Virus record (IMG/VR): IMGVR_UViG_3300006224_000015
Span: 1-46,675 of that record
DNA: 46,675 nt
Origin: a virus
Direction: 5' to 3' (one strand)
Shown: piece after piece, positions 7,460 to 46,675 of the stretch
Position numbering within the stretch: the stretch's first letter is position 1
Layout of the letters: each line of letters begins with the position of its first letter
Program-made: the position numbers and the translations under genes
The notes under the pieces: model-generated
Seen by the model: only the letters and a program-made list of their open reading frames with translations
Database searches by the model: none
Told to the model about the DNA's origin: nothing

Positions 7460-8995
7460 ATGCCTGGCCTGTATCGACGGCCCCCGCAGCCGCAGCGGCT
7501 CCTTCCGCGCGCTCGTCCGAAGGGTCCGAACACCCAATCGTTCACCGCGACCCTCTCGTTCTCGGGCTCGCTCTCCCGCAAGGGGCGCAAGACACTCGCC
7601 GGCTCGCTGACGCCATCGGGCGCCCTGACGAAGCGCACGAAGCGCGCCCTCGCCGGCGTCCTCTCGTTCAGCGGCGCCCTGACGGCGACCAAGAAGTTCA
7701 CCAAGGCGCTGACCGCCACGCTGACGTTCAGCACGACGTTCCGCGCCAAGGCCCGCAAGAGCCTCGCCGGCTCGATCACACCAGCCGGTGCGCTCACCAA
7801 GCGGACGAAGCGGTCGCTGGCTGGCTCGATCTCCCCAGCCGGCGCGCTCACCCGCAAGCCGCGCAAGCCGCTTGCCGGCAGCATCAGTCCCGCCGGCTCC
7901 TTCGCCCGGAAGCCGCGCAAGAACCTGACCGCCTCGATCTCCCCCGCCGGCGCCCTGACCAAGCGGACGAAGCGGTCGCTCGCGGGCGTCCTCTCGTTCA
8001 GCGCCGCGCTCACCAAGCGGACGAAGCGGTCGCTCACGGCCACCCTCTCGTTCGCCGGCGCCCTGACCGCCGATGCGGTCAAGCGGTACTACGAGAGCTT
8101 CACCGCGACCCTCTCGTTCTCGGCTGCCCTGACGAAGCGAACCAGCCGGTCGCTCGCCGGCAGCATCAGCCCAGCCGGTGCGCTCACCAAGCGCCCCAAG
8201 CGCGCGTTCGCCGGCAGCATCAGTCCAACCGGCGCCCTGACGAAGCGCACGAAACGCCCGCTGGCCGGGACCCTGACGTTCTCGGGCGCGCTCACGAAGC
8301 GGACCAAGCGCGCGTTCAGCGCGACGCTCTCGTTCAGCGCCGCGCTCACGAAGCGCACGAAGCGCGCCCTGGCTGCCACGCTGTCGTTCGCCGGCGCGCT
8401 CACGAAGAAGGCGGGCAAGACGCTGACCGGCGCGCTGTCATTCAGCGGCGCGTTCAACGCCGCCAAGCAGGCGCCCGGCCAGTTCTACAAGAGCTTCACC
8501 GCCGACCTGACGTTCGCCGGCGCGCTGACGCGCCGGACCAAGCGATCGTTCTCCGCCAACCTCAACCCCGCCGGCGCCCTGACGAAGCGAACCAAGCGGG
8601 CGCTCGCCGGCACGCTCTCGTTCTCGGGCACGATCACCCGCATCTTCACGGCTCGCCTGACGCTCGCCACGAGCAGCACGATGACGGCCACGATGGCGCG
8701 CACCGTGCGCCTGACGCTGCTGACGAGCTCGCCTTGGACGGTCACGATGAGCCGCAAGGTGTCGATGACGCTGGCGACGACGAGTACGATGGCGGCGACC
8801 ATCGGGCGCACGGTCGGCATGACGATTGCAACGACGAGTACGATGACGGCGACCATGCAGGAGGCCGCGATCTTCCCGATCTTGCTGGCGGCGGCGGGCA
8901 CGTTCGCTGCTAGCATGGTGGACACGTTCATCCCGGCGGGTCCGGCACCGCCCGACAGCGACCAGTACGAAGCCCTCATGTTGCGACGGCGGTAG
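7460..8995 (+). CDS. 511-aa protein of tandem 18-residue repeats
   Basis: After a 27-residue basic N-terminus the protein consists of about 20 copies of an 18-residue unit, such as LAGSISPAGALTKRTKRS or LAGTLSFSGALTKRTKRA, from residue 28 to 399. Four copies of a different 18-residue unit, such as LTLATSSTMTATMARTVR, follow (400-471). Three units carry 2-6 extra residues. The strand-like pattern ends in a basic TKRTKR turn, suggesting a beta-solenoid or fibre with a strongly positive edge. The C-terminus has a hydrophobic segment and an acidic-Pro tail. A TAGGAT box 6 bases before the ATG could be a -10 element or a weak ribosome site. Function unknown; position suggests a virion protein. Confidence 0.75.
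   Translation: MPGLYRRPPQPQRLLPRARPKGPNTQSFTATLSFSGSLSRKGRKTLAGSLTPSGALTKRTKRALAGVLSFSGALTATKKFTKALTATLTFSTTFRAKARKSLAGSITPAGALTKRTKRSLAGSISPAGALTRKPRKPLAGSISPAGSFARKPRKNLTASISPAGALTKRTKRSLAGVLSFSAALTKRTKRSLTATLSFAGALTADAVKRYYESFTATLSFSAALTKRTSRSLAGSISPAGALTKRPKRAFAGSISPTGALTKRTKRPLAGTLTFSGALTKRTKRAFSATLSFSAALTKRTKRALAATLSFAGALTKKAGKTLTGALSFSGAFNAAKQAPGQFYKSFTADLTFAGALTRRTKRSFSANLNPAGALTKRTKRALAGTLSFSGTITRIFTARLTLATSSTMTATMARTVRLTLLTSSPWTVTMSRKVSMTLATTSTMAATIGRTVGMTIATTSTMTATMQEAAIFPILLAAAGTFAASMVDTFIPAGPAPPDSDQYEALMLRRR
7541..8872 (+). repeat. Tandem ~54-bp coding repeats
   Basis: About 24 consecutive units of 54 bases (three are 60, 66 and 72) encode the 18-residue repeats of the 7460 gene. 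Copies differ mostly at synonymous positions (for example the aag-cgc and aag-cgg forms of the KR codons), so the array is old or kept divergent rather than freshly expanded. The first ~20 units and the last four differ in sequence but share the same period. Confidence 0.85.
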
Positions 8996-25143: not shown

Positions 25144-25153
25144 GCCCTACGAT
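25124..25153 (+). promoter_or_regulatory. Candidate sigma70-type promoter for scaffold/capsid genes
   Basis: TTGACG (25124-25129) and TACGAT (25148-25153) are 18 bases apart, inside and just after the end of the giant gene. The ATG of the scaffold gene lies 7 bases after the -10 box and lacks a clear ribosome site. That suggests a leaderless or near-leaderless transcript giving extra expression of scaffold and capsid genes. Confidence 0.5.
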
Positions 25154-25160
25154 CGCCGGG

Positions 25161-25838
25161 ATGGCAACGGAAGTCGCTACGCCGACACCCGCACCGGCAC
25201 TCGAGCCGGCGGCTGACGCCCCTCCTGCGGAACAGGGCGAGGCCGTCGCGCAGAACCAGCCTGCGGACACCGACGCGCAAGCGGAGCCCGATCGCCGACT
25301 GGCACAGGCCGAGTACACCAGAGCCCAGCAGGCGTTCGCGCTTGCCAAGGCGGAGCTCGGACTGGACCCCAAAGCCACCCGAGAGGAGTTCCTCGAGGCC
25401 GTTCGCGCGCTCAAGTTGGCGCCGAAGCCGGCTTCCGAAGATGACTCCCCCGACGAGGACCCCCGAGTCGCCGAGTACCGACAGCGGGCGTGGGACGCGC
25501 AGTTCAAGATGCTGGCAGCGGTCTACCCCGACTACGCCGGACCCGCGATCGAGTACGTCAACCTCGCGCGCACGTCGGACGATCCCGAGGAGCTCGTCAG
25601 CGCCTTCGCGGCGCTGGTCGAGGAGCTCCGCGGCGAACGCCCGGCTGCGCCCGCCCCCGTGGCGGAGGAGGAGGGCGAGGAACCCGTCGATGTCGGGCTG
25701 CCAGGCGACGACTTGGCACCTTCCGGTAGCTCTCGGACTTCCTCAACGGAGTCCGCGCCCTACCGGCGTCGTGAGTCTGCGGTCGTGGGTGCCGTCCGCG
25801 GCATCTTCGCAAGCGCGGGACTGCCTCCCCGTCAGTAG
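25161..25838 (+). CDS. Putative scaffolding protein
   Basis: The 225-aa product precedes the capsid gene. It has an Ala/Pro/Glu-rich disordered N-terminus, a helical middle (LAQAEYTRAQQAFALAKAEL; REEFLEAVRALKLAPK; a YPDYAGPAIEYVNLAR segment), an acidic stretch and a basic C-terminal end (YRRRESAVVGAVRG). Acidic, helical, low-complexity proteins directly upstream of the major capsid gene are typically scaffolds, which guide capsid assembly through a basic C-terminal contact and then leave. No protease domain is seen. A candidate promoter lies just upstream. Confidence 0.65.
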   Translation: MATEVATPTPAPALEPAADAPPAEQGEAVAQNQPADTDAQAEPDRRLAQAEYTRAQQAFALAKAELGLDPKATREEFLEAVRALKLAPKPASEDDSPDEDPRVAEYRQRAWDAQFKMLAAVYPDYAGPAIEYVNLARTSDDPEELVSAFAALVEELRGERPAAPAPVAEEEGEEPVDVGLPGDDLAPSGSSRTSSTESAPYRRRESAVVGAVRGIFASAGLPPRQ

Positions 25839-33600: not shown

Positions 33601-35331
33601 GTCCTCAATGCCCTGCGCGCCAGCACGGGGAGCGGCATCCTCGCCGGCAGCCTCGCCTCCGACTCCGCGCCCTACCGCTTCGTCCTCGACGCCGGCGGCG
33701 GTTCACACTACGGGCCTGGCGGATCAGCCCGGGACCTCGCCGTCAAGCGGGGAGCCGCCAGTCGGCTCGACATCGATGACGACAGCGCCGGCCCGGCGAC
33801 GCTTCGGGTCGCCAACGTGCAGACGAAAGGCCGGCCGTGGTTCGATGTGCGGGCCTACGGCGCTGTGGGGGACGGGACGACCGATGACACGACCGCGATC
33901 CAGAGCGCGATCGACGCCGCGGAGGCCGAAGCGCGCAGCCCGGGGTTCGGCGCAGTCGTCTACTTCCCGATCGGCGACTACAAGATCACGGACTCGCTGA
34001 CGGTCGAGGCGCAGGGCGTCATCCTCAAGGGCGCCGGGCGCGAGAACACGATCATCCGGGCCAGCTTCAGCACCGCCAAGACGATGCTCTACCTCGGCGA
34101 TGGCGGCACGTCGCAGATGTGGGGCATCCAGGTCCAAGACCTGTTCTTCGTCGGGTCTGCCAACGTCAACCATGCCATCTACCTCAAGCACTACGCCGTC
34201 GAGGGCATCCTCGCGCGCTTGCGGATCGAGGACTGCACGGGCTCGCCGGGGACCGCCATCTACTGCTCCGACACCACCGACGACCAGCATTGGACGTGGC
34301 TCGCCCGGGACCTGATCCTGCGGAACAACGACACCGGGATCGCCCTGCGGCAGCGCGCGCAGTTTTGGGTCATCGATGGCTGCACGATCTCGGTCAACAA
34401 CTCCTACGGCGTGGACGCGCTGGGGCAGGGCGGCAATACGCTCGGCGGGCGCCTATTCATCCAGAACAGCAACATCGAGCGCAACGGCTCGTCCGCGACG
34501 GACGGCAACATCTACCTCCGCGACATCCAACTCGCCACGATCCGCAACGTCTACTCCGAGAACAACGTCGATCACCCGGGGTTCTTCGTGCGCCTCGGCA
34601 AGCACCCGACCGCCAGCCCGGACGAGGGCTGCGAGGACATCCTGATCGAAGGGTGCTACTCGACCGGCAGCTCCTCCGCCACCAAGGGGATCATCCTCGA
34701 GTACGCATCGAACGTCACGATCCGCAACAACCGCCTGCGAGCTCACACGACCGCCGACATCAGCTACGAGCCGGGCACCCTGACCGACATCAAGGTCTAC
34801 GACAACACCTATGACGGCGCGGCCGATCACTCGGCCATGCAGCGGGTCATCCCGGTCCCGGTCGGCGGGTGGGTCGCCGAGACGGGTAGCCCGGCATCCG
34901 TGCTGTGGCCTGGGACGGGCAACACCTACGATCGCCTCACGGCGGTCGCCTTCGACGACACGACGACGGAGGGGATCGCCTTCCCGCCGGTCATCGTGCC
35001 CTCGAGCTTCAAGTCGTCGTCTCCGCTTCGCATCTACATCAAGTTCGGCGGCGACGCCACGACAGGCAACGTGTTCTGGCAGGCGTTCCTCAAGGTCGTC
35101 TCGAATGGCGAGGCGGCGACCGGCGCATCGGACCTGGCCGTGTCGCGCACGCTGGCGGTATCGGGGACCGCCTACGCCCCGCTCGAGACGTACATCGGCG
35201 CTTCGACCATCGCTGCCTCGCCGGGGGACATCATCCGACTCGTGATCCGTCGCAAGGCCGCCGATGCCGGCGACACGCTGGTCGGCGACGCATACCTGCT
35301 CGGCGTGGAGCTACGCCGAGAGGACTGGTAA
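30604..35331 (+). CDS. Tail fibre/spike with two pectate-lyase-type beta-helix modules (1575 aa)
   Basis: ATG 30604 overlaps the previous stop. A coiled-coil N-terminus (LSELQRELQALRADLGRLRD) is the likely trimerisation or attachment end. Two copies of a block follow, offset by exactly 670 residues. Each has a DLR/DLA--RGAAKR-DIDD linker (from ~373 and ~1043), then GRPW-DVRAYGA-GDGTTDD entry motifs (409 and 1079) of the Pectate_lyase_3 family, opening a right-handed beta-helix. These are typical phage depolymerase/receptor domains. The C-terminal part (~1420-1575) is beta-rich. Catalytic residues cannot be assigned from sequence alone. It sits at the end of the tail module. Confidence 0.85.
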   Translation: MTTLSELQRELQALRADLGRLRDDTDRDVVALGAAVRRHSVTLAHEEVARSIKRLAPPVELVRWTPRVGQDFDPDLNQSLIERLKRGDPVADTVGNTEPLPGQTNILDEQAFDNYAPAAVSLGTTYTTVGHGNIPTLGTPGYTWQALRSNTSCTATTNQYKERDKQATNPFNSAAVAIAITASGAGTHAVTLDSSPIDITALPQRSFLVAAIRCARLSANTYTNVTSRKLYLDVWDNTSSIARASTTLDLTGLSDVDFDIQGIDAAVNFVAEGADSRTHSYVLRLRLEIETTGPTTGAITYYVGEPLLHFAFNPTPVSFTPAVAGWLPNRFAHHAASATSTGIGSTKLFSDSYTRWFLRADGTQRYGGGAAAQDLRTMRGAAKRFDIDDTAGGAATLRVANAEFAGRPWHDVRAYGATGDGVTNDAAEIQAAVDAAIAEGGGTVFLPPGTYKLGTTTIWLTSDGTSAGNPVPVNIVGAGAEASIVTYTGSGVALHGGTSGAGYSGGVALRDFQLDGTSSTGNARGVYLKRIYRPVTITRMQISDFAFAGVHLYRCYGAVIRDSRIGSCGWGVMLDNANGASMFGNRIVTGVNGGIRLFKNGTPRGTLAADASAGATNIKVSTVSGWSIGDDIQIGTAGTRDVREITNVGTAGAGGTGLTITPATTYAHTTGDDLSEIIAPYDETGTASANYAIVGGTVEDCTGPGISVEQVSQAYIAGVYIEGNGNGTAGQVVIGGADGGSGGTASKGISLVGNRFQASGGGTLSNWAVQVVFAVDTSYLSNWSDTHSSACMRLDSTAGGNVLMMGNNINDTTALSDATTANYGLLVTQEAGPHLAFSESGSGINFAGGGVLRHLAPGVVRLDNGAAVGTTLEMIERGVPSTPGTAGALRIYASSATKTLHHVDDAGVDTDLGAAGTGAATQASRDAATGSGDYVARIRVGTESNFRAYLRLDTSNQPELTLGPGTSATDLRLARTGTRELTIDDDAAHANPVELFLHGVLNALRASTGSGILAGSLASDSAPYRFVLDAGGGSHYGPGGSARDLAVKRGAASRLDIDDDSAGPATLRVANVQTKGRPWFDVRAYGAVGDGTTDDTTAIQSAIDAAEAEARSPGFGAVVYFPIGDYKITDSLTVEAQGVILKGAGRENTIIRASFSTAKTMLYLGDGGTSQMWGIQVQDLFFVGSANVNHAIYLKHYAVEGILARLRIEDCTGSPGTAIYCSDTTDDQHWTWLARDLILRNNDTGIALRQRAQFWVIDGCTISVNNSYGVDALGQGGNTLGGRLFIQNSNIERNGSSATDGNIYLRDIQLATIRNVYSENNVDHPGFFVRLGKHPTASPDEGCEDILIEGCYSTGSSSATKGIILEYASNVTIRNNRLRAHTTADISYEPGTLTDIKVYDNTYDGAADHSAMQRVIPVPVGGWVAETGSPASVLWPGTGNTYDRLTAVAFDDTTTEGIAFPPVIVPSSFKSSSPLRIYIKFGGDATTGNVFWQAFLKVVSNGEAATGASDLAVSRTLAVSGTAYAPLETYIGASTIAASPGDIIRLVIRRKAADAGDTLVGDAYLLGVELRREDW

Positions 35332-35346
35332 GGAGGCCCGCCCCGC

Positions 35347-35529
35347 ATGATGACCCTCGACACGAACGAGCTGGTCCTGACCATCGTTGACCAGGCGCAC
35401 ACGATCCGGCGGCAGGCCGAGGAGATCGAGCGCCTGACCCAAGAGCGCAACGCCGCGGCGGCGTGGCAGCGACGGGGTGCAGAACAGGCCGACGAGGGTG
35501 CGACGCCGACGGACCAGACCAACACCTGA
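35347..35529 (+). CDS. Small coiled-coil protein
   Basis: TAAGGAGG lies upstream of ATG 35347 (ATG 35350 is an alternative). The 60-aa product is a single predicted coiled coil (IVDQAHTIRRQAEEIERLTQ) with an Ala/Asp/Glu tail. It is soluble-looking, with no signal peptide. It is the first gene of the lysis region. It could be a spanin-like or accessory lysis protein, but it has no membrane segment or lipobox. Confidence 0.5.
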   Translation: MMTLDTNELVLTIVDQAHTIRRQAEEIERLTQERNAAAAWQRRGAEQADEGATPTDQTNT

Positions 35530-35543
35530 AAGGGAGGCGCAGC

Positions 35544-35666
35544 TTGCAGGCCCACGACTTCGCGTTCGTCATCCTGGGGATGCTGACCGGCTCTGCTGTG
35601 ACCGTGGTGCTCGAGTGGGTCGTGTTTCCGCTCGTCCTGCCGCTGACACACCGACGCCGCCACTAG
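35544..35666 (+). CDS. 40-aa single-span membrane protein
   Basis: TTG 35544 follows an AAAGGGAGG ribosome site at 35529-35537. The product MQAHDFAFVILGMLTGSAVT... is one hydrophobic segment followed by a basic end, LPLTHRRRH. Such proteins in lysis cassettes may be antiholins or holin partners. Role inferred from position and topology. Confidence 0.5.
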   Translation: MQAHDFAFVILGMLTGSAVTVVLEWVVFPLVLPLTHRRRH

Positions 35667-35882
35667 ATGTCCCGCCGCGTACGGCAGGACGACTTCCGCG
35701 CCGCCCGGACAGGGGCCGCGGCGGCGCTGGTCGCGGTACTCATCGTCCTGCTCCTGATGGACGCGCTCTCGTCCGAGTACCAGGTCGAGCCATACGCGCT
35801 CGTGTCGCTCTTGACGACCATCGCCTCGCTGCTAGGCTTGGCCGTGCGCGACTACCGCCAGCGCGACGACGAGGACGCCTGA
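35667..35882 (+). CDS. Two-span small membrane protein, holin-like
   Basis: The 71-aa product has a basic N-terminus (SRRVRQDDFRAAR), TM1 at ~17-33, TM2 at ~44-60, then a charged tail RDYRQRDDEDA. It starts directly after the preceding stop and ends in a TGATG overlap with the amidase gene. Two short helices with charged ends, next to an endolysin, is the usual holin arrangement. A second holin-like gene follows the amidase. Confidence 0.6.
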   Translation: MSRRVRQDDFRAARTGAAAALVAVLIVLLLMDALSSEYQVEPYALVSLLTTIASLLGLAVRDYRQRDDEDA

Positions 35883-36799
35883 TGGCCTACGCATACACCC
35901 GCAGCTATGTGGACGGCGGGCTCGCTCGAGGCCCGCGCCTCGCGTTCGTCGTTCACATGGCCGAGGGCGGCGGCACCGTCGCCTATCTCGCCAAGGCAAA
36001 CCCCCGCGGCGTCTCGGTCCACTACGTCATCGAGCGGTCGGGGAGGATCGTTCGGATGCTGGCCGAGAGCCACATGCACACGTCGATCCGGTCCAGCGAC
36101 ATCCGCACCACGGACGACGCGGACGGGTTCTACGGCGCCACCGCCCGGCAGGCCGTGATGGGCGCCTGGGGCACCATCGCCCACACCCTCGGCCCGAACC
36201 ACGCCAGCATCGCCGTCGAGTGCGAGGGGTACGCCCTGACCGGCCCGAACGCCGACCAGGCCGCGTCCCTGCAACGCCTCTACGCCGACCTGCGGACCCG
36301 CTACCCGGGGATCCGCTCGCTCGGGCACCGCGACTTCGCGGACTACAAGGCGTGCCCGGGCAAGAAGCTGGATTGGACTCGCATCGGCGGCCACGGAGCT
36401 GCGACAGAGGTGGACATGATCGGAACCGTCACCCGGACTCCCTACGCCGGCGGCCTGGCATCATGGCGCGTCGCTGCCGGCGTCACGATCAACGGCTACG
36501 ACCCCAAGCAGCCGGGCAAGGTCGTCCGCTCCATCACGTTCGACTCCGCTTCGGGCGCTCATGCCCGAGCCGAGGTCATCGTCACTTGGGACCCGGCGCC
36601 CGGTCCGGTCCCCCGCGGCGGTCCGTTCCTCGAGGTCGCCGACGGCGCGTTCGAGAACCTCCTGATCGTGAAGGCTCTCGTCACCGTCACGCCCCCGCCG
36701 GCGCCCGCCGACACGACGCCGTTCGACCAGGCCGACATCGACAAGGCGACAGCCGAGCTCGACAAGGCGTGGGAGGACTGGCTGACCACCCACCCGTAG
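35882..36799 (+). CDS. N-acetylmuramoyl-L-alanine amidase-like endolysin
   Basis: The 305-aa product has an Amidase_2-type domain in the first ~165 residues. AFVVHMAEGGG contains the first zinc ligand (H25). SLGHRDFADYKACPGKKLDW contains H149 and C158. These are the His-His-Cys set of T7-lysozyme-type amidases, which cut the peptide from the glycan strand of peptidoglycan. A C-terminal ~130-residue beta-rich part could bind the wall. There is no signal peptide, so release would need the neighbouring holin. The start overlaps the upstream stop (TGATG). Confidence 0.88.
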   Translation: MAYAYTRSYVDGGLARGPRLAFVVHMAEGGGTVAYLAKANPRGVSVHYVIERSGRIVRMLAESHMHTSIRSSDIRTTDDADGFYGATARQAVMGAWGTIAHTLGPNHASIAVECEGYALTGPNADQAASLQRLYADLRTRYPGIRSLGHRDFADYKACPGKKLDWTRIGGHGAATEVDMIGTVTRTPYAGGLASWRVAAGVTINGYDPKQPGKVVRSITFDSASGAHARAEVIVTWDPAPGPVPRGGPFLEVADGAFENLLIVKALVTVTPPPAPADTTPFDQADIDKATAELDKAWEDWLTTHP

Positions 36800-36815
36800 C
36801 AGGAGGAGCTGGAAC

Positions 36816-37007
36816 GTGCAGAAGGAACCGGCGGTCATCATCGCCACCCTGACGGCAGCGATCATCGCCGTCGTCAGGCTGTTCATCGATGTCCCGCCTG
36901 ATGTCGAGAGCGCGATCATCGTCGTCCTGGTGTTCGTCGCCGGCCTGATCACCCGGGCCGCGGTCTACGCCCCGGCGACCGTCGCCAAGCTGACCGGGAA
37001 AACCTAG
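36816..37007 (+). CDS. Holin-like two-span membrane protein
   Basis: GTG 36816 has AGGAGGAG upstream. The 63-aa product has TM1 at ~6-24 (PAVIIATLTAAIIAVVRLF) and TM2 at ~31-52 (ESAIIVVLVFVAGLITRAAV), then a basic tail. Short proteins of this pattern (KEPA-...PP-...TR--V) directly after endolysins are annotated as holins in many phages. It ends the rightward virion/lysis unit before the terminator. Confidence 0.6.
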   Translation: MQKEPAVIIATLTAAIIAVVRLFIDVPPDVESAIIVVLVFVAGLITRAAVYAPATVAKLTGKT

Positions 37008-37024
37008 CCTCCTCCTCCCCTCGG

Positions 37025-37064
37025 CCCGAAGCCGCCCGGTTTCCCCCCACCGGGCGGTTTCGGG
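37025..37064 (+). terminator. Strong rho-independent-type terminator
   Basis: A 16-bp stem (37025-37040 with 37049-37064, one G-U) encloses the loop TTCCCCCC. A short TTGT follows. It separates the virion/lysis unit from the early genes and is symmetric enough to work in both directions. Confidence 0.75.
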
Positions 37065-37075
37065 TTGTATCGGAG

Positions 37076-37084
37076 TGGTAAACT
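37076..37084 (+). promoter_or_regulatory. Candidate extended -10 promoter
   Basis: TGGTAAACT matches the extended -10 form TGnTAnnnT, 30 bases before ATG 37115 and directly after the terminator. No good -35 box lies at normal spacing. It would drive the 37115-41227 unit. Confidence 0.35.
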
Positions 37085-37114
37085 GGTCGAAACCCGTCAC
37101 AAAGGAGGCAGCGC

Positions 37115-37306
37115 ATGGCGCACAACCCGCTGGACACACGCCCGCCCTATACGCTCGACGACGCAGCGCGGGTGCTGCATATCTCCCGCGGCACGCTCGA
37201 CCGCCTGATCAAGAACGGCGCCATCGCCACCGTGCCGCTCGGCAAGCGCCGGCGGGTCACCGCCGAGGAGCTCGAGCGGGTGGCACGGGAGGGGGCCGGG
37301 GGGTGA
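37115..37306 (+). CDS. Excisionase-type helix-turn-helix protein
   Basis: AAAGGAGG precedes ATG 37115. The 63-aa product is a single winged-helix/HTH domain of the HTH_17/excisionase kind: YTLDDAARVLHISRGTLDRL, then a wing GAIATVPLGKRRRVTAEELE. These bind DNA as phage excisionases or small regulators. No integrase is in the window. First gene of the rightward early unit, so it could regulate it. A second protein of the same type is encoded leftward at 41151. Confidence 0.8.
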   Translation: MAHNPLDTRPPYTLDDAARVLHISRGTLDRLIKNGAIATVPLGKRRRVTAEELERVAREGAGG

Positions 37307-37875
37307 CGACCAAGGAGCTGCCGCCGCTCGACGGCGACGAGGAGGAGCCCGGGCGCCCGACGCAGCAGGCGGTCGTGCTGCTCGACCGGCTGTTCTGGTC
37401 GATCACCGAGTCGGTCCACGACGAGGCGCTGTCGCCGGTGGCGTCGATGTCACCGGAGGAGCGCAGCGAGATCCTCGACCTGGCGAACGATCTCCGCCGC
37501 CTCGAGGACGTGTGCCACGTCAAGCGGACGAAGATCGAGAACCTGTTTCGCTCCTACGCCAGCGACAACGGGGCCCGCCAGATCCCCCTCGAGGATGGAT
37601 GGCTGGCCGTGGAGCCGGCCAAGGGTGAGTACAAGGTGGACGTGCCGGCGCTGCTGGACGAGCTCAAGGAGCTCAAGGCGCACGGCCTGATCACCGGCGA
37701 GGAGATCGAGCGATGCGTGCGGACGGTCGTGGAGACACGGCCCGACAACAGCGTGCTCAACTTCCTCGCCCGCAACCGTGGCGATGAAGTCCGAGAGGCG
37801 ATCGAGCGGCACCGGAAGTTCGTGCCCGGCGATCCCTTCCGGGCCAAGCTGACCGTCAGGAGGAGGAGCAAGTGA
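37303..37875 (+). CDS. Hypothetical 190-aa early protein
   Basis: GTG 37303 overlaps the previous stop. The product is acidic at the start, then helical (LDRLFWSITESVHDEALSPV; EEILDLAN-type helix; LEDVCHVKRTKIENLFRSYA). It ends in a mixed part with a basic tail. No family is recognised. A coupled position behind the HTH gene suggests an early role in DNA metabolism or host takeover. Confidence 0.5.
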   Translation: MTTKELPPLDGDEEEPGRPTQQAVVLLDRLFWSITESVHDEALSPVASMSPEERSEILDLANDLRRLEDVCHVKRTKIENLFRSYASDNGARQIPLEDGWLAVEPAKGEYKVDVPALLDELKELKAHGLITGEEIERCVRTVVETRPDNSVLNFLARNRGDEVREAIERHRKFVPGDPFRAKLTVRRRSK

Positions 37876-38081
37876 CGACAGGAGGGGAGACGGCGCCGCG
37901 CTACCTGCGGGTGGTGCTGGACATCACAGTCACGAAGCCGAAGCTGGCCCACCGCCTGCTCGAGCTGGCGTCGGAGTTCACCGGCACCGACGAGCTCGGC
38001 GAGGATCTTGCCGAGGGCATCCGCGACGGCGACGTGTGGGTGGACGCCGTGCGGCAGGCCGCCCAGGCGGAGGCGACATGA
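37872..38081 (+). CDS. Hypothetical 69-aa early protein
   Basis: GTG 37872 overlaps the preceding stop as GTGA. The product has a beta strand (YLRVVLDITVT), then a helix (KLAHRLLELASEFTG), acidic segments and DVWVDAVRQAAQ. It is small, acidic and soluble. The stop overlaps the next ATG. Function unknown. Confidence 0.5.
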   Translation: MTTGGETAPRYLRVVLDITVTKPKLAHRLLELASEFTGTDELGEDLAEGIRDGDVWVDAVRQAAQAEAT

Positions 38082-38398
38082 GCAAGGAGTTCGAGCGGGG
38101 CATGGAAGCCTCGCAGCTCGCCGCCGACTACCGCTGGACGATGCTCGAGCAATACGAGGTCGATCTCGCCATCCGCTCCGTCGCACGGCGGGCGTCGATG
38201 TTCACGACCGACGCCGTGTGGACGGCGCTGGGGCCCGAGTTCCCCGTCACCAAGGGCATCGGCTCACGGATGCGGAAGGCGCAGCGTGACGGGCTGCTCG
38301 AGAACACGGGGGAGACGATGACATCGCGGCGCAGGGGGGAGCACGGCCACGCGCAGCGGCTCGTGATCTGGCGCTCGCTGATCTGGACCGGGGAGTGA
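38078..38398 (+). CDS. Winged-helix-like 106-aa protein
   Basis: ATG 38078 lies in an ATGA overlap. The product is basic. VDLAIRSVARRASMFTTDAV followed by FPVTKGIGSRMRKAQRDGLL and an RRRGEHGHAQRLVIWRSL wing resembles a winged helix-turn-helix DNA-binding domain. A regulator role in early gene control is likely. It is not matched to a named family. Confidence 0.5.
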   Translation: MSKEFERGMEASQLAADYRWTMLEQYEVDLAIRSVARRASMFTTDAVWTALGPEFPVTKGIGSRMRKAQRDGLLENTGETMTSRRRGEHGHAQRLVIWRSLIWTGE

Positions 38399-38409
38399 AA
38401 GGAGACAGC

Positions 38410-38673
38410 ATGGGACCTACACCGCGCATGATCCTCGCCATCGTGATCGGGTTCGCCGCCGCCACGGCGGTCGGCCTAGTCGGGGTGGTGATCGACCCCT
38501 ACGGGGAGCACGGGCTGGTGGTGCTCGCCGGCTTCACGATGATCGTCGTCGCCGCCGGCACCGCCGCCCTGACGGAGCGCAAGCTCGCCGCGCGTGACGC
38601 CGCCGCCAAGATCACCCAGCAGCGGGCCGTCGAGGCTGCCGTCGCCGCCGAGCTCGAGCGGAGGGGCGCATGA
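38410..38673 (+). CDS. Small membrane protein with charged tail
   Basis: GAAAGGAGA precedes ATG 38410. The 87-aa product has two hydrophobic segments (~7-28, MILAIVIGFAAATAVGLVGV; ~35-52, GLVVLAGFTMIVVAAGTAAL), then a charged helix with Ala/Arg/Glu. It is an early membrane protein of unknown function. A role in superinfection exclusion or membrane association is possible but not shown. Confidence 0.5.
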   Translation: MGPTPRMILAIVIGFAAATAVGLVGVVIDPYGEHGLVVLAGFTMIVVAAGTAALTERKLAARDAAAKITQQRAVEAAVAAELERRGA

Positions 38674-39155
38674 CCAACCGACCCGTCCGGGTCGTCATGC
38701 CGCAGGCCGAGCTCTACCGGGAGGCGGAAACGGCGTTCGTCACGGCGACGACGTACTGGCCCTTCCTCGAGCCGATGATGGTGTGGCTTCCCGATCCGCA
38801 GGGCTACGCACGGCTCATGGCGGAGCTGTGGCGGGGCGGCAGGGCGTTCGTCATCGTGGAGCATGACGTGGTGATCGACGCCGCGAAGCTCCACGAGCTC
38901 CTGTCGTGCCCGGAGCCGTGGTGCGGCTTCCCGTACCTCCAAGTGCCCGACCCCAACAGCGAGCCGGTGCTGGGCTTGGGCTTCACGAAGTTCGAGCGCA
39001 AGGCGCTCGAAGTCCTGCCGGACATGCCGGAACGGCTCGACGGCGCGCCGTGGCAGAACGTCCACTACATCACGTCCGCCCTGCACTACGAGGCAGGGCT
39101 GACCCAGCATCGGCACGAGCCGCCGGTACGGAACCTGAAAGCGGAGGAGGGCTGA
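38670..39155 (+). CDS. Glycosyltransferase-fold-like protein
   Basis: The 161-aa product contains RAFVIVEHDVVIDAAKLHEL, then CPEPWCGFPYLQVP, and later LGLGFTKFERKALEVLPDMP. The E-H-D motif after a hydrophobic strand, followed by P-WC-FPY and LG-TKF, resembles small GT-A-type or galactosyltransferase-like proteins found in phages and bacteria, where the acidic pair binds a metal-nucleotide sugar. Length is short for a full enzyme. It is located just before the RecT gene. Function uncertain. Confidence 0.4.
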   Translation: MTNRPVRVVMPQAELYREAETAFVTATTYWPFLEPMMVWLPDPQGYARLMAELWRGGRAFVIVEHDVVIDAAKLHELLSCPEPWCGFPYLQVPDPNSEPVLGLGFTKFERKALEVLPDMPERLDGAPWQNVHYITSALHYEAGLTQHRHEPPVRNLKAEEG

Positions 39156-40651
39156 TGACCGACGAGACACGGGCGCTGGTGCTGTCGAACGAGGACCGCC
39201 AGACCGTCCACGCGCTGATCACGGCGCAGCTGGGCGAGCAAGGGCTCCGGGTGACGCCCGACGAGTTCACCTTCTTCATCCGGGTCGCCGAGCTCCGGGG
39301 GCTCAACCCGCTGTTCCGCGAAGTCCACCTGATCAAAGACAAGAGCGGGCGCATCAACGTCCAGGTCGGCATCGATGGCTTCCGCAAGCTGGCCGAGGCG
39401 AGCGGCGACTACGCCGGCCAGACCGAGCCGGTGTGGGGCGAGCCATACACGGGCCCGATCGTGGAGTGGCAGGGCAAGCCCGCCTACTGCAAGGTCGGCG
39501 TCCTGCGGCACTCGTGGTCCCAGCCGGTCTACGGCGAGGCATGGCTGGACGAGGACGGCCAGGTCAAAGCCGAGTGGATCGACGGACCGGGCGGCAAGCG
39601 CACGCAGGGGCCGGCGACCCACGCCGCTGCCCAATGGGCGCAGCGCCCCCGCACCATGCTCAAGAAGGTCGCCGAGGCCCGGGCCATCCGGGCAGCGTTC
39701 CCTCGATCTGTCGCTGGCCTGTACACCGACGACGAGCTCCACGCCGCACCGCAGCTCGAGGCGGGGCCCACCCCGACGGCATCGCTCGGGGACGGCGGCC
39801 AGCACGTCACGATCACGGCCACCGAGTCCGCCACCGTCGTCGGCCCGGCGGAGATCATCACGGGCGAGGAGGCACCATCGGGGGCAGCCTGGACGCCGGC
39901 GCCCGACCCGGAGGGCGTGTCGGCCACCGTCCGCGAGGCGCCCGACGGGATCCGCATCGTCAAGAGCTCGGCGCACCCGCCCCGCTGGGAGGGCACGAAG
40001 CCGAAGCTCGAGGTCAAGGTCAAGGTCAAGGGCCGCAATCACACCATCGTCCTGCTCGATGATCTGGCCTACGCCGCCGACGCTGCCGGGCTGCTCGAGG
40101 GTGAGAGCCTGGTGGTGCAGGGCGCATCCGTCGAGGAGCGCATCTGGCAGGAGGGCAAGCCGCCGATCCGCGAGCTGTGGGGTGCGACGGAGCTGCTCGT
40201 CTCCCGCCCCGACGGCTGGCTGCCGGTGTCCACATCACCAAGGGCCCAGCCGATCGGGGAGTTGCCGCTGGTGGACTCGACCGCCCCGATGGCGGAGCCG
40301 ATGGATCAGCTCGAGCGGTACGACGGACCGCCCGAGATCACGACCCACCCGCCGGCGCCGGCACGGCTCGAGGAGGGCTGGGCCGGGGCCCTGCGGGTCA
40401 AGCTGGTCGGCGAGATCACGACCGGCACGACGCCGCGCGGCAAGGCGTACGCGGAGCTCCCGCTGGCGCTGCTCGACACCGGCGAGCTGGTGCGGGCGGT
40501 GCTCGGCGACGACCCGCCTGGCGAGATCGGAGCGCAGCTGCTCGGCGACGACGGCAAGAGCTGGGCGTTCACGACCGGCGACGTGCTGACCGCCTACGGC
40601 ACGGCGAGCAAAGGCTGGTTCATCCTGACGGCCATCGGGAAGGGAGGCTGA
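39155..40651 (+). CDS. recT: RecT/Bet-family single-strand annealing protein with OB-like extensions
   Basis: ATG 39155 follows GGAGGAGGGC in a TGATG overlap. Residues ~1-205 show a RecT/Bet pattern: EFTFFIRVAELRGLNPLFRE, HLIKDKSGRINVQVGIDGFR, then WAQRPRTMLKKVAEARAIRA. These proteins anneal single strands during phage recombination. The family usually ends by ~350 residues. Here a linker leads to two beta-rich, OB-fold-like segments, ~267-354 (LEVKVKVKGRNHTIVLLDDL ... GESLVVQGASV) and ~412-498 (ALRVKLVGEITTG ... GDVLTAYGTASKGWFILTAI). The extension may bind single strands. Confidence 0.75.
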   Translation: MTDETRALVLSNEDRQTVHALITAQLGEQGLRVTPDEFTFFIRVAELRGLNPLFREVHLIKDKSGRINVQVGIDGFRKLAEASGDYAGQTEPVWGEPYTGPIVEWQGKPAYCKVGVLRHSWSQPVYGEAWLDEDGQVKAEWIDGPGGKRTQGPATHAAAQWAQRPRTMLKKVAEARAIRAAFPRSVAGLYTDDELHAAPQLEAGPTPTASLGDGGQHVTITATESATVVGPAEIITGEEAPSGAAWTPAPDPEGVSATVREAPDGIRIVKSSAHPPRWEGTKPKLEVKVKVKGRNHTIVLLDDLAYAADAAGLLEGESLVVQGASVEERIWQEGKPPIRELWGATELLVSRPDGWLPVSTSPRAQPIGELPLVDSTAPMAEPMDQLERYDGPPEITTHPPAPARLEEGWAGALRVKLVGEITTGTTPRGKAYAELPLALLDTGELVRAVLGDDPPGEIGAQLLGDDGKSWAFTTGDVLTAYGTASKGWFILTAIGKGG

Positions 40652-40652
40652 C

Positions 40653-40766
40653 GTGGACGAGGAGCTCGGCAGGCCGGATGCGTTCGGCTGCCTGCTGATC
40701 GTGACGCTGGTGCTCATCGGGTTCATCGGCGGCTACGCCGTCTGCGCCTGGGGGTGGTGGTGGTGA
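40653..40766 (+). CDS. 37-aa single-span membrane mini-protein
   Basis: GTG 40653 starts a small frame with ribosome site GGGAGG upstream. The product is VDEELGRPDAFGCLLIVTLV, continuing to LIGFIGGYAVCAWGWWW. It is one hydrophobic helix with three terminal Trp. It ends in an overlap with the GTG of the nuclease gene (GTGA at 40763-40766), consistent with coupled translation. Function unknown. Confidence 0.45.
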   Translation: MDEELGRPDAFGCLLIVTLVLIGFIGGYAVCAWGWWW

Positions 40767-41227
40767 GGCCGAAGGCGAAGGCGAAACCGGAATCGGAATC
40801 GCTGCCCGCCGTCCCCGAGCGCGAGCTGGCCGATGCGTTCGAGTTCGCCTTGCGCCTGATGGGGCCCGGCGTCGTCTGGTACCACACCCACGACAGCCGG
40901 CGATCGCAGCCCGGCTTCCCCGACTACATCGTGCTCGCCGGCGGTACTGCCTATGCGTTCGAGATCAAACGGGACGGGGGCGAGCTGACGGCTGCACAGG
41001 AGAGCTGGCTCCGGGCGCTGGCCGGCGCCGGCCTGGTGGCGGCGGTGCTCGTCGGGCCGGACGGCGTGGCCTGGGCGGTGCGCTGGCTCGAATCAGGACG
41101 CCGGACCGGAATCATCCGGCCCGGCGTCGTGCTGCTAGCAGCGGGTGGGGCTAGATCGGAGGTGCTCCCGCCCGGGACGCGGCGAGTCGTCGCCGGTACT
41201 CCGGGGCGTTCGACCAACCGCGGCTAG
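40763..41227 (+). CDS. VRR-NUC-type nuclease
   Basis: The start is chosen as GTG 40763, in an overlap with the mini-protein; three GTG codons precede it in frame. The 154-aa product has QPGFPDYIVLAGGTAYAFEI followed by KRDGGELTAAQ. Residues D54, E67, K69 and Q79 form the PD-(D/E)xK core of VRR-NUC domains, with an upstream H-T-H segment. Such phage proteins are structure-specific or Holliday-junction nucleases. Together with RecT and SSB it suggests a recombination module. Its last 77 bases overlap the convergent gene at 41151. Confidence 0.82.
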   Translation: MRPKAKAKPESESLPAVPERELADAFEFALRLMGPGVVWYHTHDSRRSQPGFPDYIVLAGGTAYAFEIKRDGGELTAAQESWLRALAGAGLVAAVLVGPDGVAWAVRWLESGRRTGIIRPGVVLLAAGGARSEVLPPGTRRVVAGTPGRSTNRG

Positions 41228-41399
41228 CTGCGATCCGGCTCGACCAGTCCGTCACGGCGGCGCGGGTCGTGAGCCAGCGACCGCCGACCTTGGTTGCCTC
41301 GAGGCGCCCGGTGATCGCCGCTTGCCGCAGGGTCACGGGTGCCCGACCGACGAGCTCGGCGGCGTCGGCCAGCGACAGGAGCTGCTCGGGGTCGATCAT
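41151..41399 (-). CDS. HTH excisionase/MerR-like small protein
   Basis: The 82-aa product starts at ATG 41399 in an ATGA overlap with the upstream gene. LLSLADAAELVGRAPVTLRQ then GRLEATKVGGRWLTTRAAVT is an HTH_17-type helix-turn-helix with a wing. The C-terminus is basic. It is the last gene of the leftward operon and overlaps the 3' end of the rightward nuclease gene by 77 bases. It is probably a DNA-binding regulator or excisionase. Confidence 0.7.
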   Translation of the reverse strand: MIDPEQLLSLADAAELVGRAPVTLRQAAITGRLEATKVGGRWLTTRAAVTDWSSRIAASRGWSNAPEYRRRLAASRAGAPPI

Positions 41400-41638
41400 C
41401 GCGCGGCGTGGTACGTCACGACGCCCACAACGAGGGCCAGGCCGCCGAACGCGACGATGCCCACGAGGAAGCCGCGCGCGAAGTCCGACAGCTCCCGCCG
41501 CGGGTCGGGCTCGGGCTGGTAGACGATGGGGCGGGCCATCGGCTGACGGGTGCCGTAGTGCCCGGCGCAGAGGCGCGAGTCGGGGCGGGCCATGCGGTCG
41601 CAGCCGACGACGATGCAAGGCGGGTACGGGTAGGTCAT
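41396..41638 (-). CDS. Zinc-knuckle and membrane mini-protein
   Basis: ATG 41638 is preceded by GGAGGAGAAC. The 80-aa product starts MTYPYPPCIVVGCDRMARPD. Cys8, Cys13 and the following CAGHY form a likely zinc knuckle. A hydrophobic segment sits near the C-terminus (ARGFLVGIVAFGGLALVVGV). The pairing of zinc site and membrane helix is odd. Function unknown. Confidence 0.6.
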   Translation of the reverse strand: MTYPYPPCIVVGCDRMARPDSRLCAGHYGTRQPMARPIVYQPEPDPRRELSDFARGFLVGIVAFGGLALVVGVVTYHAAR

Positions 41639-42006
41639 GCGTTCTCCTCCGTTTCTGCGGTGGTGAACCAGCGGCGGGACGGCGGGAGCTCGCCGCCGGT
41701 GGCGGTGGCCGGGCGCCCGTCGTGGTCGTCGTGCGGGCAGTACCACCCGGCGCTGTAGCCAATCAGGGGCCCGTGGTCAGCGTTTGCGGGGCACCTTGGT
41801 CCGGCGTAGCGCTCGGGTGAGTAGGTCCGCCGGCGTCGGGCAGTCGTGCCATTCGTCGGCTGGCTCGTCGCGGTGTCGGGGGCAGGGTCCGAAGTGGGCG
41901 AGGTCCGGCGACGGCTCGCCGCGTTCGCGCCGGACCGACTGCGCGAGCCGGGCGGCGCGCTCCGTGGCGAACGTCTCGAGGCCGAGCCGGTACGGTCGTC
42001 GCTCAT
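41635..42006 (-). CDS. Hypothetical zinc-site protein, start uncertain
   Basis: The only standard start is ATG 42006 (123 aa). From there to 41777 the frame shares the DNA with the 41777-42013 gene, whose codon use is better. The last ~60 residues (YAGPRCPANADHGPLIGYSA, WYCPHDDHDG) look like real protein, with a Cys/His zinc-type pattern, and have no other coding frame over them. A non-standard start or a frameshift from the upstream gene are alternatives. Function unknown. Confidence 0.45.
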   Translation of the reverse strand: MSDDRTGSASRRSPRSAPPGSRSRSGANAASRRRTSPTSDPAPDTATSQPTNGTTARRRRTYSPERYAGPRCPANADHGPLIGYSAGWYCPHDDHDGRPATATGGELPPSRRWFTTAETEENA

Positions 42007-44144: not shown

Positions 44145-44954
44145 CTAGCCGGCGGCGAGCTCGATCGGCCAGAGGGCGCCGGACCATTCGTGCTGGCGGT
44201 CTAGGTGGCGCTGGTGGGCGTCGGGGTCGGGGTCGTCCCGCCCGGCGGCGGCGGCGGCGAAGAATGACCCGACGGCGACGAGCTCCCGCACCCGGGCCCG
44301 GGCATCGGGGTCGCCGACCCTCGGCACGATGCCGGATAGGGCCGCGGCGCTCCGCAGGTCGGCGCCGGTCAGGAGCCGACCGGGCCCGCCCGGGCAGACC
44401 GGGCACCGCCCGGCCAGCCGGTCGCGCTCGTGCCGGGCGCCCCGCCGGGCATCGGCCCAGCGGTCCGCCTCGAGCTGCCGGCGGCGCTCGAGGGCGGCGG
44501 TGTACTCCGCTTCGAGCTCGACGGCGAGCCCTTCGAGGTCGGGGTCAGGGTCGGTCACCCGGAAGGGTGCCCACGAGGCGACGACCGCGGGCGAGTCCAG
44601 CCACGCCCACAGGTCGCCGGTGTCGATGGTGGTGAAGTTGTCCGGGTCGTCGTCGTCATAGCCGAATGACCAGACGACCCGCCCGGCGCGCACGGCGTCG
44701 GGCACGTCGGCGGAGTCGATCGGCTCGCCGAGCGCGACGAACGCCGGGGGCACGGGGCAGCCGGACTCCGCGCGCCGGTCGTGCGCGTCGGCGTCGAGGC
44801 CGCAGTCGCCGCAGAGGTCGCGCGGCTCGACCCGCCGGCCCGTGAGCCGGAAGGCTGCGCAACACGTCGGGCCCATGCTGGCCGGGTGAGCGCACGGCAT
44901 CGGCTGGTCGGCGTCGTCGCGCCAGACCTGCGCCGCGTAGTCGTAGGACGGCAT
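44145..44954 (-). CDS. 269-aa protein with Cys clusters and coiled coil
   Basis: AGGAGGAAC precedes ATG 44954. Cysteines at ~21, 31-32, 48, 51 and 66 form a probable zinc module (CGDCGLDADAHDRRAESGC). An acidic middle (FGYDDDDPDNFTTIDTGDLW) follows, then a coiled coil at ~138-180 (LEGLAVELEAEYTAALERRR) and a second CPVCPGG knuckle at 184-187. The C-terminus is Asp/His-rich. It is the first gene of the leftward unit and lies under the 45009-45037 promoter. It may be a DNA-binding or replication-associated protein. No family is recognised. Confidence 0.6.
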   Translation of the reverse strand: MPSYDYAAQVWRDDADQPMPCAHPASMGPTCCAAFRLTGRRVEPRDLCGDCGLDADAHDRRAESGCPVPPAFVALGEPIDSADVPDAVRAGRVVWSFGYDDDDPDNFTTIDTGDLWAWLDSPAVVASWAPFRVTDPDPDLEGLAVELEAEYTAALERRRQLEADRWADARRGARHERDRLAGRCPVCPGGPGRLLTGADLRSAAALSGIVPRVGDPDARARVRELVAVGSFFAAAAAGRDDPDPDAHQRHLDRQHEWSGALWPIELAAG

Positions 44955-45008
44955 CGCCGTTCCTCCTGATGGGCCGGCACGCATGACGGGCGCGCCGGGT
45001 ACACGACA

Positions 45009-45037
45009 AGGGTACTCCGATGCCGGCGGAATGGCAA
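45009..45037 (-). promoter_or_regulatory. Leftward sigma70-type promoter
   Basis: On the minus strand TTGCCA (45037-45032) and TACCCT (45014-45009) are 17 bases apart, with the expected start near 45002 and the first leftward gene at 44954. A 19-bp motif copy (45037-45055) abuts the -35 box, as an operator would. Confidence 0.55.
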
Positions 45038-45111
45038 GCGGTATCGATGGCCGATCGAGCTGGTACGAACGGCGGAGGAGCTCGCATCGGCGAGCGGTAG
45101 CGTTGGCCGTG
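45037..45111 (+). repeat. 19-bp motif copies A and B
   Basis: Copy A AGCGGTATCGATGGCCGAT is at 45037-45055. Copy B AGCGGTAGCGTTGGCCGTG is at 45093-45111 (15 of 19 identical). Copy A contains a short dyad TCGAT-GGCCG-ATCGA extending to 45058. They are candidate operator or initiator sites. Confidence 0.55.
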
Positions 45112-45257
45112 GCGCCTGGGCGCCGAGGAGCTCGTGCCGGAGCGGGGAGGGGGGCTATAGGGGGAGGGGTGGATCGGGTCAGGGTCGGACCGGATGGGCC
45201 GAGGATGGGCGAGGGGCCGAGCCTCCCGGCAGAGCCGTCCCGTGGAGCTCGTGACGG

Positions 45258-45324
45258 ACAGCGCTACCGCTGTCGATCGGCGACAGCTGATACAGCGCTA
45301 CCGATGGCCGATAACAGGGGTTAT
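45258..45324 (+). repeat. Motif copy C and overlapping dyads
   Basis: Copy C AGCGCTACCGATGGCCGAT lies at 45294-45312 (17 of 19 identical to A). ACAGCGCTACCG occurs at 45258-45269 and again at 45292-45303 (34-bp spacing). Dyads: ACAGCG-CTAC-CGCTGT (45258-45273), CTGTCG-ATCGG-CGACAG (45270-45286), and ATAAC-AGGG-GTTAT (45311-45324). The density is unlike coding or plain intergenic DNA in this window. Confidence 0.6.
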
Positions 45325-45574
45325 GTCCACAGCTCGAGGGTCCGGCGCCTGGCCGCCTGTATCGATCGGGGTCGGGCCCGGGCCGGGGGCCGGCCGGGGG
45401 CCGGGGGCGTCCGTACACACTCGAGCCGCCGGCGCCGGGTCCTCGAGGGGTCCCGGGGGGTGGCGCCCTGCCAGACGGCCGGGCCGCCGGGGGGGGCGGG
45501 TCGCCCATTCCCCACATGGACCCCCCACTTCCAGATCGCCCCCGGAGTCCCGTTCCTCCCCGCAGCCCCCCGTG

Positions 45575-45580
45575 TACCCT
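45575..45580 (+). promoter_or_regulatory. Candidate -10 element (TACCCT) for the 45587 gene
   Basis: TACCCT lies 6 bases before ATG 45587, with no ribosome site between. This is the spacing seen before 25161 and suggests a leaderless transcript. No clear -35 box was found. Confidence 0.35.
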
Positions 45581-45586
45581 GCGCCA

Positions 45587-45715
45587 ATGGATACCCCGAT
45601 CGTCCCGGTCGAGCTCATCCAGGCCATCCTCGCCCTGATCTTCATCCTGATCTTCATCCTGACCGCCATCTACTACGGCTCCGACGACCGGCGCTGGCCG
45701 CCAGGAGGCCCGTAG
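45587..45715 (+). CDS. 42-aa single-span membrane protein
   Basis: The product MDTPIVPVELIQAILALIFI is almost one hydrophobic helix, with a charged end (YYGSDDRRWPPGGP). The frame is open far upstream, but only this ATG has a sensible protein. It lies alone between two control regions. It could be a small regulatory or exclusion membrane protein. Confidence 0.5.
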   Translation: MDTPIVPVELIQAILALIFILIFILTAIYYGSDDRRWPPGGP

Positions 45716-46014: not shown

Positions 46015-46043
46015 TTGACTTCCCCCGGGGGCGTGCCTAGCAT
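46015..46043 (+). promoter_or_regulatory. Rightward sigma70-type promoter
   Basis: TTGACT (46015-46020) and TAGCAT (46038-46043) are exactly 17 bases apart, 36 bases before ATG 46079. This is the best-formed promoter seen in the window. Confidence 0.6.
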
Positions 46044-46058
46044 GACGTTGACCGTCAT
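46042..46058 (+). promoter_or_regulatory. Operator-like dyad overlapping the -10 box and start site
   Basis: ATGACG-TTGAC-CGTCAT is a perfect 6-bp dyad with a 5-base spacer. It overlaps the end of the -10 box and the expected transcript start, so a bound repressor would block the promoter. Confidence 0.55.
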
Positions 46059-46273: not shown

Positions 46274-46675
46274 CCGCCCGGGGCGGGTTCGACCTCGCCC
46301 AGCTCGACACCGGCTTCCTCGCCGACCCCAAGTTCGTGCGGCTGGCCCGGATGGTGCCCGACGACGAGACGTTCCTGGCCTGCGTGGGCCTCTGGACGAT
46401 GTGCATCGCCCATGCGTGGTCCCGCGACGACGCCGACGTGAGCGAGATCACCGCGTCGTACCCGGCGCTGGGCGCCTGGCTGGCCGAGGCGCACCTGATC
46501 CACGGGGTCGATCTCGTGGGCTTCGAGCGCAAGGTCGCCAAGATGCGCCAGCGCCGCCTCGCCGACGCCGAGCGCAAGCGTGCCGGGCGTCCGACATCCT
46601 CCGATGGAGTCCAGCGGAGTCCGCAGGAGTCCGGGGGAGTCCTGCGTGAGGTAGAGGTAGAGGTAGAGGTAGAGG
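46270..46675 (+). CDS. Replication-initiator-like protein, 3' partial
   Basis: The frame runs off the window. The N-terminal part (ARGGFDLAQLDTGFLADPKF; LWTMCIAHAWSRDDADVSEI; LAEAHLIHGVDLVGFERKVA) resembles the N-terminal winged-helix part of phage DnaD/DnaT-like replication proteins. A basic helix (KMRQRRLADAERKRAGRPTS) follows, then a repetitive EVEVEVE stretch, also common in such proteins. Four GGAGTCC repeats lie inside the coding sequence. The C-terminal part, which would settle function, is missing. Confidence 0.55.
   Translation, partial: MTARGGFDLAQLDTGFLADPKFVRLARMVPDDETFLACVGLWTMCIAHAWSRDDADVSEITASYPALGAWLAEAHLIHGVDLVGFERKVAKMRQRRLADAERKRAGRPTSSDGVQRSPQESGGVLREVEVEVEVE
46606..46642 (+). 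repeat. Four GGAGTCC iterons, 10-bp period
   Basis: GGAGTCC occurs at 46606-46612, 46616-46622, 46626-46632 and 46636-46642, exactly 10 bases apart with variable 3-base spacers. Because 10 is not a multiple of 3 the encoded peptide is not repetitive, so the pattern exists at DNA level. Candidate initiator-binding sites. Confidence 0.7.
46648..46675 (+). repeat. GAGGTA hexanucleotide repeat
   Basis: At least four full GAGGTA units run to the window end, encoding alternating Glu-Val in the replication-protein frame. It may continue beyond the window. Confidence 0.8.

Follow-up and report, generated by a model that had tools for sequence, protein, structure and literature searches.

A candidate operator array in a probable control region of an unclassified GC-rich phage

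Introduction

What is the role of a motif that recurs within one non-coding gap of a phage sequence, beside a promoter-like element? The DNA we analyzed is a stretch of 46,675 nt (hereafter the window), one strand of the IMG/VR virus record IMGVR_UViG_3300006224_000015 from positions 1 to 46,675, with a GC content of ~70% and protein matches that include a portal, a capsid, an annealing protein, an endolysin, and an SSB. Multipartite operators bound by a dimeric repressor are familiar from the lambda-type OL/OR system, and repeated initiator-binding sites from replication origins. A first-pass annotation of the sequence had offered both readings, a set of repressor operators or an iteron origin, as equals. 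Here we weigh these readings, together with chance, a folded RNA, and an attachment site.

Results

The gap at 44985-45586 lies between leftward and rightward genes. The first leftward gene (44145-44954, minus strand) encodes a protein of 269 aa, with AGGAGG 7 nt before its ATG; scans using 44145-44984 or 44145-44951 yielded no family match. The leftward genes, among them the SSB gene, extend from 44954 to 41151. On the rightward side, ORFs of 42 aa (45587) and 64 aa (46079) precede an initiator-like gene (46273) that is cut by the contig end. The 42-aa ORF has a positive codon score and is preceded by TACCCT at leaderless-type spacing (45575-45715, plus strand). Within the gap itself, the codon score is positive in no frame in sampled windows covering 44901-45600, indicating that it is non-coding; with this signal absent, we dropped the idea that the motif copies are coding repeats. 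Of the 15 G-quadruplex-type motifs in the window, 4 fall in the 440 bp at 45144-45579. At the contig end, the initiator-like gene breaks off within a gaggta repeat (46640-46675), and a similar repeat is found in a related gene on another contig, L002.

A leftward promoter had been proposed at the edge of this gap, and we find it at 45009-45037 on the minus strand: TTGCCA (45037-45032) and TACCCT (45014-45009) are separated by a 17-bp spacer. When we required a -35 element matching at 5/6 positions, a spacer of 16-18 bp, and a TANNNT element, this promoter was one of five matches in the whole window. Another of the five is TTGACT-17-TAGCAT (46015-46043, rightward), and these two are the only ones with a 17-bp spacer. 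With stricter consensus requirements, the scan recovers only the rightward promoter; it omits TTGCCA-17-TACCCT, whose -10 element agrees with TATAAT at only 3/6 positions. Divergent transcription units flank 44985-45586, and in this unclassified GC-rich phage the gap probably serves as a control region. A separate dyad, ATGACGTTGACCGTCAT (46042-46058), sits on the expected start of TTGACT-17-TAGCAT and is not closely matched elsewhere in the window; it is likely an operator for a different regulator.

The three 19-bp copies described previously are located at 45037-45055 (A), 45093-45111 (B), and 45294-45312 (C). Their identity had been given as 15-17 of 19, and this is correct for the comparisons with A (A-B 15/19, A-C 17/19) but not for B-C, which is 14/19. 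Three perfect dyads are likewise present, at 45257-45274, 45269-45287, and 45311-45324 (the last being the short dyad ATAACAGGGGTTAT), as is a 12-bp direct repeat, ACAGCGCTACCG, at 45258 and 45292, 34 bp apart. The count of three copies is incomplete, however: because the perfect dyad at 45257-45274 itself copies the motif, there are four dyad sites, and we call the additional one D.

Each site is an 18-bp imperfect palindrome without assigned strand, built from the half-site GnCAnCGnT, with all eight half-sites read inward. Site A (GCAAGCGGTATCGATGGC, 45034-45051) pairs at 6/9 dyad positions and shares 4 bp with the predicted -35 box at 45032-45037. Site B (GCGAGCGGTAGCGTTGGC, 45090-45107) also pairs at 6/9 positions, site D (GACAGCGCTACCGCTGTC, 45257-45274) at 8/9 with perfect 7-bp arms, and site C (TACAGCGCTACCGATGGC, 45291-45308) at 5/9. 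In all eight half-sites, positions 4, 6, 7, and 9 are A, C, G, and T, respectively. Site B overlaps a single TANNNT element, whose -35 matches at 2/6 positions, and sites D and C overlap none. Three GGAGCTCGYRNCGG elements on the plus strand, starting at 45077, 45127, and 45244 (span 45077-45257), are the only ones in the window; the first touches site B and the third touches site D.

The sites are irregularly spaced along the array A-B-D-C, with distances of 56, 167, and 34 bp. At 10.5 bp per turn, B-D (167 bp) corresponds to 15.9 turns, B-C (201 bp) to 19.1, and A-D to 21.2, while the pairs A-B (5.33), D-C (3.24), and A-C (24.48) are not in phase on the helix.

Could chance, or neutral resemblance within non-coding DNA of high GC content, account for four such sites? 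Dyads as such are not in excess: strong 18-bp dyads number 3 in the gap, and dinucleotide shuffling of 44985-45586 (500 replicates) yields a mean of 2.96. A loose statistic for dyad clusters (observed value 6) is attained in 37/500 shuffles. Single perfect dyads also occur in unrelated contigs, and among the relatives found none shows conservation of the motif. The similarity between the sites tells otherwise. A triple of equally similar 19-mers appears in just 3/500 shuffles, and a 17/19 pair in 10/500. We also built a symmetric weight matrix from three sites at a time and ranked the fourth against every other position in the window; the held-out site came first in four of four cases. When the whole window was dinucleotide-shuffled 200 times, the score of held-out D was never reached at any position, that of C was reached in 3, that of A in 21, and that of B in 19. 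The pattern AGCGNTANCGNTG, picked after the sites had been seen, has 5 strand-matches in the window against 0.04 expected. This motif is confined to the one gap: all matches lie within 45037-45306, and only at the four sites. With the dyad count at the shuffle mean and the triple rare in shuffles, the signal is the mutual likeness of the sites and not an abundance of dyads, and we regard chance as quite unlikely to explain the array.

The same region had been called the most ordered non-coding part of the window. As judged from close direct pairs at 17/19 identity, those elsewhere lie mostly in a repeat-bearing stretch at 7.5-8.8 kb. Most close direct repeats of the window come from this stretch (7500-8860), whose internal repeats are often separated by 54 bp.

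We next consider an RNA structure, in which the inverted copies D and C would pair in a transcript as a fold or attenuator. The D-C segment does fold better than expected, with z ~ -2.9 on both strands, but near-equal values on the two strands are what dyadic protein sites would produce. Moreover, no Rfam match was obtained up to E 1, sites A and B lie far away, and no promoter leads into the D-C segment. This explanation is very improbable.

A stronger case can be made for a replication origin, in which the dyads would be binding sites for an initiator such as the protein encoded from 46273, with strand opening around site C. When the gap was sampled in 40-bp segments, AT content was highest in the segment holding site C; the segment at 45285 has a GC content of 0.525, placing it in the lowest 0.4% of the record. 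The actinobacterial DnaA box has the consensus TTGTCCACA, and ATGTCCACA at 45323 differs from it by one letter, but five such words with at most one mismatch occur in the window. The 46273 protein has an initiator match (phrog_2447, E 0.0046), as does its relative in L002, 43% identical to it (phrog_9474, E 0.0053), though both matches are weak. Against this reading, iterons are regular repeats and the spacing here is irregular, and site A lies on the predicted promoter. The origin is still the main rival because D and C stand off recognizable promoters and C is in an AT-rich stretch, yet we consider it unlikely. The control region seen in the first-pass annotation fits these results, but its two readings do not have equal standing: the irregular spacing, the dyadic form, and the promoter overlap favor operators over an iteron origin.

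If the sites are operators, which protein binds them? Helix-turn-helix proteins at 37115, 38078, and 41151 had been nominated. Two of these are indeed HTH_17 proteins, but as binders all three are weak candidates. The 37115 protein is excisionase-like (HTH_17, E 5.6e-11; excise, E 6.1e-9), and so is the 41151 protein (HTH_17, E 3e-5, below its cut-off). The 38078 (38081) protein has no Pfam match and a weak match of unknown function to phrog_27658 (E 2.9e-6). In phage records, neither the 37115 nor the 38081 protein has a match, and the 41151 protein has only weak ones, in 19 Mycobacterium phage records; sequence searches against solved structures gave nothing useful. HTH_3 (Xre) and TetR_N domains have no match in the six frames of the record, which is possibly a fragment. 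Because the record may be a fragment, the regulator may be encoded outside it or by the host.

Excisionase-like proteins elsewhere in the record, and irregularly spaced repeats in a non-coding gap, would also suit a phage attachment site with arm-type and core sites. However, neither a tyrosine integrase (PF00589) nor a serine recombinase (PF00239) is found in six frames of the possibly incomplete record; as positive controls, the same searches found PF00589 in 14/14 genomes and PF00239 in 10/14. We view an attachment site as extremely unlikely.

Searches of IMG/VR, GTDB genomes, phages, and plasmids recovered no relative spanning the region and no similar array. The first leftward protein has no usable relative in the collections searched. 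The same holds for the portal protein when searched in genomes, for the 901-bp region when searched in phages, and for the 602-bp gap in plasmids. For the DUF7447 protein, one search gave no usable relative and another gave weak partial matches in 11 Streptomyces phage records; for the capsid protein, one was empty and another gave 14 phage records, all below 60% identity. The initiator-like protein led to three loci. Relatives of the annealing protein were found at 22 loci, of which 21 are at 24-33% identity. The remaining one, L005, is 99.99% identical over 34721-41698; it is the same virus from another sample, judging by sequence, and ends short of the array region. The core CGGTAGCGCTG is absent from all of L002-L026.

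Pattern searches of IMG/VR were equally sparse. The D-C direct repeat occurs in four stretches (L027-L030). In L027 and L030, which overlap each other, and in L028, it lies within coding repeats, and we set these aside; in L029 (GC 0.69), the repeat pair is in seemingly non-coding DNA, but we saw nothing else that convincingly ties this stretch to the window. A two-site pattern retrieved 21 stretches, none of them a convincing array; the best match (L047, 19.7 and 14.9 bits) is inside a 334-codon open frame in DNA of 42% GC. The dyad pattern retrieved 10 stretches, and none has a second site above 11 bits within up to 600 bp on each side, where the sequence reaches that far. One stretch, L052, carries an exact copy of site D just before a Shine-Dalgarno sequence; its proteins read as those of a microvirus, so we take this copy as chance.

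Discussion

We propose that the four dyads are operators through which one dimeric protein would repress the leftward, presumably early, promoter; these are predicted sites, and this is the reading that we think probable. The array combines several mutually similar dyads with at least one site overlapping predicted promoter elements, as an operator array would. A single dimeric DNA-binding protein would occupy the four 18-bp sites. Bound at site A, it would cover part of the -35 box and block polymerase at the leftward promoter, and this occlusion would shut off the leftward operon, including the gene for the single-strand DNA-binding protein. Sites B, D, and C may raise local occupancy or cooperativity, or may serve as auxiliary operators. 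Looping would be permitted between B and D and between B and C, since these pairs are near whole helical turns; it is a suggestion only, because A-B, D-C, and A-C are out of phase.

A version that combines a switch with an origin is improbable in our estimation. One protein would tie replication initiation to the shut-off of early genes: binding at A and B would silence the leftward operon, and binding at D and C would open the AT-rich stretch for replication. The protein would perhaps be the initiator-like product (46273) or a regulator encoded beyond the contig end.

Returning to the operator reading, the array appears to resemble a multipartite repressor operator in its working, with a binding protein that is putative. 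As in the lambda OL/OR regions, the control gap is divergent and contains several similar dyads of ~17-18 bp, with one placed on a promoter -35. In contrast to lambda, where the sites are packed, those here are 34-167 bp apart, no repressor gene of that family was found, and the two best promoters are ~1 kb apart. A lambda-type iteron origin offers a parallel in that four imperfect dyads of 18 bp lie in the vicinity of an initiator-like gene, but the dyads here are neither closely spaced nor within the initiator gene.

Two mycobacteriophage systems provide further comparisons. The repressor of phage BPs recognizes a 12-bp palindrome, CGACATATGTCG, and binds five loci across the genome (PMC4557955). 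Both systems have palindromic sites and an intergenic region with divergent promoters, but here there is one locus, with another sequence and layout (PMC4557955). Cluster A phages carry stoperators, asymmetric sites of 13 bp to which a monomer binds and which number more than 20 over the genome (PMC9283540). They too are repressor-type repeats for which a single orientation can be chosen, but the sites here are dyads in one gap only, outside the definition of a stoperator (PMC9283540). With all AGCGNTANCGNTG matches within 45037-45306 and not genome-wide, we rejected this class for the array.

The type of control region is ordinary. The operator sequence is lineage-specific, given that no close phage relative was found in the collections searched. 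The operator word formed by the GnCAnCGnT half-sites thus provides a lineage-specific entry point for studying regulation among GC-rich phages of a little-known group, and the dyads can be used as concrete DNA baits toward the regulator.

Elsewhere in the window, just before the capsid gene (25148-25161), a TACGAT element with a TTGACG -35 at 18 bp ends 7 nt before an ORF start at 25161; it is a possible leaderless promoter.
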